NCBI RefSeq assembly: GCF_030542965.1
Contig: NZ_JAUAOA010000003.1
Span: 310,001-374,000, forward strand
Source: Azotosporobacter soli
GTDB lineage: Bacteria > Bacillota > Negativicutes > SG130
Reading direction: 5' to 3'
Length of the DNA stretch: 64,000 nucleotides
Part shown: positions 40,879 to 43,811 of the stretch, piece after piece
Position numbering within the stretch: position 1 is the first letter of the stretch
Layout of the letters: every line of letters starts with the position of its first letter
Made by a program: the position numbers and the translations under genes
Notes under the pieces: generated by a model
What the model was told of the DNA's origin: nothing
What the model saw: only the letters and a program-made list of their open reading frames with translations
The model's database searches: none

Positions 40879-43113
40879 TCAAGCCTCCTCCTGAATTCGG
40901 CAGACCTGCACCAAATTGGTATGCTGCGGATTGCCTTTCGCGAGCGGCGTCGGCTGATACTTCGTCAGCGTGTTGATGCAAGCCCCCTGATCGACGCCTT
41001 TGGCATCCGGACGATGCCAGGCTCCCTGCGGCATCGCGACGACGCCTTGCATAATTCGCTCCGTGATCGTAAGCGCAATTTCGAGCGTGCCGCGTTGATT
41101 GAAGACGCGAACGCGTTCGCCGTCCTTCAGTTTTCGCCTCTTTGCATCCTCCGGATGCATCCAAAGGCAATGCGGCTGCAGTTTTTCAAGTCGCGCGGAA
41201 TTACCGAAAATCGAATGCGTACGCCCTTTCGCATGCCAGCCGATCAGCTGCAGCGGATACTCTCGCGTCAAAGGATCATCCGGTCCTTCCCAGCTTGCCA
41301 CATATTTCGGCACCGCCGGTATATCCTCCGGACGCCCTAGCGCATATAAGCGCGGGGAAAAGATTTCAATCTTGCCGGACGGCGTGGGAAACGGATATTC
41401 CTGCGGCGCTTCGATTTGCTTTTGAAAGGCGATATAAGGCGCTTCCCGCGGCTTGCAATATAAACCTTGCTCCGCGAACGATTCGTAGGAGGGAAAATCG
41501 TTTTCCCGCTTGCGCGTTTCCTCGACGATGTAACGCGCCCATTCCTCATAACTCCGTCCCTGACTGAACGCAGCCTCCACGCCGAGCGTCGCGGCTAGCT
41601 CAACCATCCAATCATAACCGGTGCGTCTTTCAAATTCGGCTTCTACCACTTTATTTTGAAAAATGGCATATTCGGCATAACCCCAGGGCTGAAAAAGATC
41701 CAAGCGTTCCAAAAAATTCGTGCTCGGCAGGACAATGTCGGCAAACTTGGCGCTTGACGTCATGAATTCTTCGCTGACCAAGATAAATTCGCACTTTGTC
41801 TCATCCGCCAGAAGGCGGCTGGTGGCCGTGATATCGGAATGCTGATTGATTAGACAGTTCCCCGCCAGGCTGGCAAGGAATTTGATGCCGACTTTCAGGC
41901 GCTCCGCGCCTTTCACACCATCGGCCGCCGTCATACGATCCCCGTCTTCAATTGCCTGTGGCCAGGTATATACGGAAATCGACGTCTTCACCGGATTCTC
42001 ATATGGAATCCCCGCCAGTTTAAGCAAAGAATAACCGCCGTAACCGGAAGCCCAGCCGCCAAGAATGCCGACATTTCCGGTCAGCGCGGCCAATACCGTT
42101 GCGCCACGCACCGCCTGCTCGCCGTTGGCATGGCGCTGCGGTCCCCAGCCCTGCAGCAGCGCGGCCGGCTTGCGCGTCGCATATTCTCTGGCTAAACGCC
42201 GAATTGTCTCTGCCGATACGCCGCTGATCGCTGCCGCCCATTCCGGCGTTTTGACAATGCCATCCGCAGCGCCAAACAAATAACCTCGCAAGGACTGCTC
42301 CGGCGCAATGCCGGGCGGCATTTGCGTTTCATCAAAGCCAAGGCAGAAACGCTCGACAAAGGCCCGATCATACAAGTCTTCGCTGATCATGACCTGCATC
42401 ATCGCGGCCATTACAGCATTATCGGTCGTCGGGCGCAGCGCAATCCACTCGTCTGCCAGTGCAGCAGCCGTATCGGAATAACGCGGGTCGATGACCACGA
42501 TGCGCGCGCCGCGCTCTTTCGCCGCCTTCAGATACTGAAATGTATTCGTGCCGAACACCGTTTCCAGTGGATTATGACCCCACAAAAGAATGAGTTTTGC
42601 ATGCAGCCAGTTGTCACGCGAGCTGCCGGTATCCGCAGTGCCGTACGTATATGGCGTCGCGGTCATCGTGCAGGCCGTGCTGTAAGAGTTGTAAAAATCA
42701 AGGTATCCGCCGCCGTATATAGAGAGTAAACGGCGGAAAAATTCACGTTCCGACAGACTGCCGGCAATGCCGGTCGCATAATTTATATAGCGCGCTTCCG
42801 GTCCATAGCGCTCTGTGATTCGCTTTAGCTGCGCGGCGATCTCAGCGATTGCTTCCGGCCAGGAAATCGGCGTGAACTTTCCTTCGCCTCGTTTACCGAT
42901 CCGTTTCAACGGCTGCTTCAGACGGTCCGGATGGTAGAGTCGGTCCAGATACATCAAGCCGCGCATGCAGCCTTTAAGCGTCTCACGTCCCTCGCCGCCC
43001 GCATCCGGCGTTATCTTTACCAATCGGCCATCCTTGACGTGCGCCTGCATGACGCAACGCCCGCCGCAATTATGCCCGCAGGTCATCAATACCACGCGTT
43101 CTTCCGCCATCAT
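40879..43113 (-). CDS. Cytoplasmic-type molybdopterin oxidoreductase
   Basis: 744 aa. ATG 43113 (GGAGGCGC); ATG 43110 also fits. An N-terminal 4Fe-4S site Cys12/Cys16/Cys20/Cys49 (CGHNCGGRC ... KGC), the Mo-bis-MGD catalytic domain (ISWPEAIAEIAAQLKRI, LILLWGHNPLETVFG, IVVIDPRYSDTAAALADEWI, LQGWGPQRHANGE), and the C-terminal molydopterin dinucleotide-binding barrel (RVRVFNQRGTLEIALTITERIMQGVVAMPQGAWH). It belongs to the DMSO-reductase superfamily, closest in pattern to DmsA/PsrA-type catalytic subunits. No TAT signal and no electron-transfer or membrane subunit genes are nearby, so substrate and partner are unknown. Confidence 0.9.
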   Translation of the reverse strand: MMAEERVVLMTCGHNCGGRCVMQAHVKDGRLVKITPDAGGEGRETLKGCMRGLMYLDRLYHPDRLKQPLKRIGKRGEGKFTPISWPEAIAEIAAQLKRITERYGPEARYINYATGIAGSLSEREFFRRLLSIYGGGYLDFYNSYSTACTMTATPYTYGTADTGSSRDNWLHAKLILLWGHNPLETVFGTNTFQYLKAAKERGARIVVIDPRYSDTAAALADEWIALRPTTDNAVMAAMMQVMISEDLYDRAFVERFCLGFDETQMPPGIAPEQSLRGYLFGAADGIVKTPEWAAAISGVSAETIRRLAREYATRKPAALLQGWGPQRHANGEQAVRGATVLAALTGNVGILGGWASGYGGYSLLKLAGIPYENPVKTSISVYTWPQAIEDGDRMTAADGVKGAERLKVGIKFLASLAGNCLINQHSDITATSRLLADETKCEFILVSEEFMTSSAKFADIVLPSTNFLERLDLFQPWGYAEYAIFQNKVVEAEFERRTGYDWMVELAATLGVEAAFSQGRSYEEWARYIVEETRKRENDFPSYESFAEQGLYCKPREAPYIAFQKQIEAPQEYPFPTPSGKIEIFSPRLYALGRPEDIPAVPKYVASWEGPDDPLTREYPLQLIGWHAKGRTHSIFGNSARLEKLQPHCLWMHPEDAKRRKLKDGERVRVFNQRGTLEIALTITERIMQGVVAMPQGAWHRPDAKGVDQGACINTLTKYQPTPLAKGNPQHTNLVQVCRIQEEA

Positions 43114-43159
43114 GCGCCTCCTGTCACGTTTATTTTGCTACCAGTATACCATAAGATGC

Positions 43160-43292
43160 GGCTTGTGGCTTGTGGCTTGTGGCTTGTGGCTTGTGGCTTG
43201 TGGCTTGTGGCTTGTGGCTTGTGGCTTGTGGCTTGTGGCTTGTGGCTTGTGGCTTGTGGCTTGTGGCTTGTGGCTTGTGGCTTGTGGCTTGT
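43160..43292. repeat. Perfect 7-bp tandem repeat, 19 copies
   Basis: GGCTTGT repeated 19 times without error over 133 bp. It ends 47 bp before the start codon of the molybdoenzyme, inside its promoter/leader region. On the minus strand a TTGACA (43295-43290) touches the upstream edge and a TATACT (43148-43143) follows the downstream edge. 7 bp is not a multiple of three or of a helical turn. Such a tract is prone to slippage. Confidence 0.97.
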
Positions 43293-43341: not shown

Positions 43342-43463
43342 GAGTCTGCTCAAACAGTGCCAGATACTAGGCGCACCGAGGGCTGTGCCGCGCCGCGTAC
43401 TAAAGGTACGCAAGCCAGCAACCGCAGGTGCAACAACGTAGCTGGTACTGTTTCAGCAGACTC
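43342..43463. repeat. 122-bp imperfect palindromic element
   Basis: Outer arms of 22 bp (43342-43363 and 43442-43463; GAGTCTGCT...CCAG) match at 20 of 22 positions. The interior folds further (GCACC/GGTGC and an apex GCGTAC-TAAA-GTACGC). It could be a MITE-like element or a structured RNA. No clear target-site duplication was seen. Confidence 0.7.
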
Positions 43464-43470
43464 CGTAAAT

Positions 43471-43499
43471 AAAAAAACACCCTCGCATACGCGAGGGTG
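43471..43499 (-). terminator. Terminator of the zinc-ribbon gene
   Basis: CACCCTCGC / GCGAGGGTG stem, 4-nt loop, T7 on the minus strand. Confidence 0.93.
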
Positions 43500-43508
43500 A
43501 TACAACTC

Positions 43509-43811
43509 CTAGTAACGCGGGTTGTTTTTGCTGAAGCAATCGCGGCAATATACCGGACGATCGTTGCTCGGACGGAAAGGAACTTGGGTGTCGATTCCGC
43601 AAGCTGCGCAAACTGCGTCATGCATTTCGCGTTGTTGGAAACCACCACTGCGGCCACCACCGTTGTTTTGTTGCTTGCGTGCTGCACGGCACTCAGGGCA
43701 ACGACCCGGCTCATTGGTGAAACCTTTTTGAGCAAAGAAATCTTGCTCCGAAGCGGTGAATACGAACTCGGCGTTGCAATCGCGGCAGGTTAAAGTTTTG
43801 TCTTGATTCAT
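43509..43811 (-). CDS. Zinc-ribbon domain protein (zf-trcl / CxxC-x17-CxxC)
   Basis: 100 aa. First zinc ribbon: TCRDC (Cys9-Cys12), CPEC about 26 residues later. A Gly/Asn/Arg-rich linker (QQNNGGGRSGG) and a second CAAC ... YCRDC pair. This two-ribbon architecture with a GGGR linker is widespread in Clostridia and Negativicutes and is thought to bind nucleic acid; the function is not established. Own terminator; GAGGAGG precedes the ATG by 11 bp. Confidence 0.85.
   Translation of the reverse strand: MNQDKTLTCRDCNAEFVFTASEQDFFAQKGFTNEPGRCPECRAARKQQNNGGGRSGGFQQREMHDAVCAACGIDTQVPFRPSNDRPVYCRDCFSKNNPRY

Follow-up and report, generated by a model that had tools for sequence, protein, structure and literature searches.

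The window analysed here, a 64,000-nt stretch of the Azotosporobacter soli genome, carries at 43160–43292 a tandem array of a heptamer that reads GGCTTGT on the plus strand and ACAAGCC on the minus strand, which encodes both neighbouring genes. A repeat count over the window gave 19.0 copies, with 100% match and zero indels, exactly as described in the earlier note on this DNA. The array is by far the strongest tandem repeat of the window and, with 19 of 19 units perfect and arranged head to tail, belongs to the long simple sequence repeats (perfect or near-perfect copies of a 5–11-bp unit). The gene downstream of the tract (40879–43113, minus strand), previously annotated as a molybdoenzyme, indeed encodes a 744-aa catalytic subunit of the DMSO/selenate-reductase family, matching TIGR02166 with 935 bits (cut-off, 777.7). 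Its ATG is 46 nt from the end of the tract and is preceded by the Shine-Dalgarno sequence AGGAGG (43117–43122, minus strand), for which a second ATG, at 43110, shows a better spacing of 6 nt; a TAG stop in the frame of the reductase (43138–43140, minus strand) lies between the tract and the start codon. No Tat leader was found on the reductase, and homologues from the same class include some without a leader and others with one.

Upstream of the tract lies the gene for a small zinc-ribbon protein (43509–43811, minus strand; zf_Tbcl, CxxC-x17-CxxC), which is closed by a strong intrinsic terminator (43478–43499, minus strand), so that a separate promoter, located between 43478 and 43113, is required for the reductase gene. 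This interval also contains a 122-bp inverted-repeat element (43342–43463), dispersed in the genome and in the class and separated from the tract by a 49-bp spacer. We found nine matches to this element in the genome, three of them in tandem on contig C14, and it was also matched in 10 of 59 further genomes of the class; loci L163, L173, L180, L200, L205 and L206 carry it as well. In an alignment of 34 copies, the core CGCCG-CGTAC...GTACGCAAGC is conserved and the arms of a long outer stem vary, and an Rfam search of the region, element included, returned nothing above the gathering score. We considered whether the tract is part of this element, and discarded the idea on finding no such element beside the second array described below.

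Two perfect arrays with a period of 5–12 and at least three copies were found in approximately 0.48 Mb of the A. soli genome (the window, 20 sampled stretches and a stretch of contig C17), and both consist of GGCTTGT, indicating that these arrays are not due to chance. The second array, absent from the earlier note, comprises 16.3 copies (G000:C17:56212–56325) and is located between a PTS EIIBC gene and a gene for a PRD/PTS_EIIA-type regulator, both on the same strand. A pattern search of the whole genome, also with a degenerate unit (NGCTTGN three times), recovered only these two loci, and their unique flanks differ, so that the C17 array is independent of the one in the window. The order of elements at C17 is TATAAT, 5 nt, tract, 19 nt and start codon of the regulator gene. 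There, an ATG overlaps the TATAAT, 7 nt upstream of the tract (L151, 9194–9335), and the regulator frame is open back to the tract, so that some copy numbers would yield an N-terminal extension; this ATG is currently out of frame with the regulator. The DNA beside the perfect array (L151, 9330–9430) contains degenerate heptad-like sequences in the opposite orientation (TTAGCCC TTAGCCA TATGCCG ... CTAGCCA TTCGCCA TACGCCG), perhaps an older, decayed array.

Both arrays have a TATAAT directly upstream of the tract, on the strand of the gene; in the window, this hexamer matches the −10 consensus perfectly (43301–43296, minus strand), a match by consensus only, and precedes the tract by 3 nt. Neither TATAAT is accompanied by a good −35 element, none being present at 14–20 bp from the one in the window. 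The background frequency of TATAAT in the 150 nt upstream of long ORFs of the genome is 0.00063 per position, giving a chance occurrence within 26 nt of about 1.3% per array and roughly 2 × 10−4 for both, values to be read bearing in mind that the pattern was noticed after the fact. Between the tract and the gene lies a second putative element, the extended −10-like sequence TGGTATACT (43151–43143, minus strand), likewise identified by consensus only, in which TATACT (43148–43143) has TGG upstream. Extended −10 promoters do not require a −35 element, and TGGTATACT is thus a candidate promoter lying wholly downstream of the tract. The TGG before TATACT and the TATAAT upstream of both arrays suggest that the promoter probably lies entirely on one side of the tract, either upstream or downstream, and that the tract is most likely leader or promoter-proximal DNA and not a spacer between −35 and −10 elements. 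The shared orientation and position of the two arrays, 19–46 nt before the start codons and just after a TATAAT, may point to a function.

We then considered the coding potential and folding of the tract. An N-terminal coding tract, or a switch by fusion of an upstream ORF to the reductase, was discarded, as every frame stops before or at the start codon; the TAG at 43138–43140 prevents the tract from ever becoming an N-terminal extension at any copy number, and it is thus not the kind of repeat, within a reading frame and near its 5' end, that switches genes by frame shifts. We also rejected a leader fold that would mask the ribosome-binding site depending on copy number: predicted accessibility of the Shine-Dalgarno sequence was 0.47–0.53 whatever the copy number, and that of the start codon was flat above approximately 10 copies. 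As RNA, the GGCTTGT strand of the tract folds with −49.7 kcal/mol, versus −6.9 kcal/mol for ACAAGCC. As DNA, neither strand folds better than shuffled sequences (z of 0.01 and 0.63), and a hairpin-driven, orientation-dependent expansion was rejected on these grounds. The unit contains runs of only two G, whereas a quadruplex takes at least four runs of three G or longer.

The unit is absent from the relatives of A. soli that were sampled: searches for (GGCTTGT)3 in 299 other genomes of the class and for (GGCTTGT)4 in 397 other members of the phylum found nothing, and a reversed control unit occurred in one genome of the phylum set. Within Bacillota there is consequently no unit-specific excess over the control, with one genome each, and the occurrence of the unit in one of 398 genomes agrees, for this unit, with the earlier remark that repeats of this kind are rare in Firmicutes promoters. 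This absence is as expected of a recent expansion. Conversely, a scan of GTDB representatives for (GGCTTGT)4 retrieved at least 120 stretches in at least 80 genomes from many phyla, at unrelated genes. Among the arrays listed (122 compared), the 19 copies in the window are the longest and the 16.3 copies on C17 the third longest, and among the matches listed the arrays of most other genomes are intergenic. Dozens of loci with the unit occur in the 4.1-Mb metagenome-assembled genome JAPPFW (RHO1_bin_3, G685), with 97 overlapping matches. A literature search for the GGCTTGT unit found, among the papers covered, no publication on it, only unrelated short sequences.

Orthologous tracts differ in length between close relatives, with 11.3 copies in Bifidobacterium scaligerum and 8.3 in its sister species B. 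olomucense, in a flank 99.3% identical over 1.5 kb, and with 8.7 versus 6.7 copies in Fretibacterium orthologues. These differences are direct evidence of instability of GGCTTGT tracts and indirect evidence for the window locus, in favour of the earlier note's reasonable expectation of a tract that changes length. In three groups the heptamer occurs in coding sequence. The metagenome-assembled genome JAPLIO (Candidatus Melainabacteria) contains at least eight pilin-like genes (L035, L040, L048, L060, L097, L104, L125 and L141) in which (ACAAGCC)n immediately follows the start codon and precedes a FTLSELLVSLAVLGLIAGLTVPS segment; only L125, whose N_methyl domain scores just above the cut-off, is in frame and the other seven are out of frame, and two further loci, L115 and L150, are truncated at contig ends. 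Phase-variable pilins of which a single copy is ON would be expected to show such a pattern. Helicobacter vulpis, H. labacensis and H. baculiformis (L041, L078 and L124) carry the heptamer in N-terminal codons, within the signal peptide of an outer-membrane-type gene that is ON in one case and OFF in two, and a gene family of Synergistaceae (Fretibacterium L050, L071, L089 and L132) has it in N-terminal codons with mixed frames. By their frames, the tracts of these three groups look like classical contingency loci, and they show that the ACAAGCC unit can be recruited for switching.

Among the matches listed, 55 genomes showed a prevailing sense in the genes within 300 bp of their tracts, as called by a simple, crude ORF caller: it was ACAAGCC for 43 and GGCTTGT for 12 (one-sided sign test, 1.7 × 10−5). 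The bias, again among the matches listed and weighted by genome, is seen with tracts that lie upstream of genes (40 to 19) as well as with downstream ones (48 to 21), and both A. soli arrays conform to it. Given the comparison with shuffled sequences above, DNA folding does not account for it; from the difference in RNA folding energy, selection against the structured GGCTTGT strand in transcripts is a possible cause.

Heptamer arrays upstream of genes have precedents. In the promoter of Haemophilus influenzae hmw1A/hmw2A, a higher number of 7-bp repeats was shown by experiment to lower the transcript of a surface adhesin (PMC8262952). Like those arrays, the one in the window has around 20 copies of a heptamer in the upstream region of a gene, here 46 nt before the ATG and after a TATAAT, but the unit differs and the gene is for a metabolic reductase. 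The heptamers of Xanthomonas (GGGAATC) and Nostoc (GGGGA(T/C)T), which precede ORFs by no more than 50 bp and whose G-rich strand is the non-coding one, have no demonstrable regulatory role (PMC4692102). They resemble GGCTTGT in being intergenic, in having the G-rich strand non-coding, in lying close upstream of ORFs with functionally unrelated neighbours, and in varying in length between relatives, whereas they contain GGG or GGGG runs, form quadruplexes and occupy up to 186 loci per genome, as opposed to GG only and two arrays here (PMC4692102). The TAACTGA direct repeats of Beggiatoaceae, Cyanobacteria and Bacteroidetes (PMC4679880) are likewise a single heptamer with arrays in distant phyla, often just before start codons, although the unit is different, with mostly 2–6 copies and 169 loci in one genome. 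In Helicobacter, Synergistaceae and Melainabacteria, ACAAGCC appears to form coding contingency loci, in which repeats shift the frame of surface genes; unlike these, the tract in the window is outside every frame able to reach the gene.

We favour, with a probability of around 60%, the interpretation of the array as a heptanucleotide microsatellite born of slippage, for which variation in copy number is expected and whose effect on the reductase is at most graded. We infer that the array grew by replication slippage in non-coding DNA just upstream of the molybdoenzyme gene; the excess of heptamers in bacteria has been ascribed, as a hypothesis, to polymerase slippage (reference 33 as cited in PMC4692102). 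The tract would be either the very start of the leader RNA, if TATAAT (43301–43296) is used, or DNA just upstream of a self-sufficient extended −10 element (43151–43143), and the copy number at 43160–43292 would differ between clones. Any effect on the reductase would probably be nil or modest and graded, through the length of the leader or the distance from an upstream site, and not ON/OFF. A strong effect is disfavoured because the targets are not surface structures, the accessibility of the Shine-Dalgarno sequence is stable, and the repeats of Xanthomonas and Nostoc set a precedent. The tract may be a mere stutter of DNA copying.

The main rival to this interpretation, plausible by analogy but unlikely, is graded phase variation of the hmw1A type, in which the reductase transcript level would be set by how many 7-bp units the promoter or leader contains, more copies giving less expression. 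Unit length and class of position match hmw1A, whose transcript drops with more repeats (PMC8262952), A. soli has two arrays of the same unit, each in front of a gene, and both arrays lie between a TATAAT and a Shine-Dalgarno sequence; against it, neither a metabolic reductase devoid of a Tat leader nor a PTS regulator is a surface structure, and folding of the ribosome-binding site is independent of copy number. The earlier note had proposed a switch, in which contraction to one or two units would bring TTGACA (43295–43290) and TATACT (43148–43143), 141 bp apart on the minus strand, to promoter spacing. The positions and distance of these hexamers were borne out, and both are on the strand of the gene. 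TTGACA is nevertheless half derived from the repeat, its last three letters, ACA, being the start of the first ACAAGCC unit, so it is not independent of the repeat. The spacing at n units is 141−7(19−n), that is, 8, 15, 22, 29 bp, etc.; the 15 and 22 bp calculated for one and two units are arithmetically right, but the 16–18 bp of promoters is never reached. Moreover, 17–18 of the 19 units would have to be lost, leaving little slippage for reversion, TATACT is preceded by its own TGG, and a TATAAT lies upstream of both arrays. We therefore consider the switch very improbable; a promoter wholly downstream of the tract, one of the two probable placements given above, is among the outcomes that the earlier note itself named as refuting it.

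Regulation of transcription by a dedicated protein bound to the array, or by a nucleic-acid structure such as a G-quadruplex or a hairpin, would agree with the strand bias, as if GGCTTGT were disfavoured in RNA, and with the far better folding of GGCTTGT RNA; nonetheless, GG runs allow no canonical G-quadruplex, neither DNA strand folds better than its shuffles, and the unit adjoins unrelated genes in unrelated phyla, all of which makes this explanation improbable. An assembly or sequencing artefact in the length or presence of the tract appears just as remote as the spacer switch: its 133 bp are near short-read length and the copy number may be wrong, but the genome has one array on each of two contigs, with unique flanks that differ, and GGCTTGT recurs in many independent assemblies. 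More speculatively, and with little probability in our estimation, GGCTTGT/ACAAGCC could be a unit favoured by slippage and turned into a contingency repeat in many phyla independently, ACAAGCC being in the gene sense, and it would here tune the reductase and the PTS regulator through leader length, as metabolic bet-hedging and not as surface-antigen variation.

Heptamer microsatellites are over-represented in bacteria and mostly uncharacterised, and the array in the window is a further case of this already known type of repeat. It is long and clean, precedes a metabolic gene and consists of a unit otherwise absent from the sampled lineage, and, if neutral, it would be a counter-example to calling every promoter repeat phase variation. 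The recurrence of the unit across phyla and the pilin family of Melainabacteria are of more interest than the window locus: GGCTTGT occurs in many phyla, and in three of them it is coding with mixed ON and OFF frames, which provides a test of the repeated recruitment of one unit for switching.
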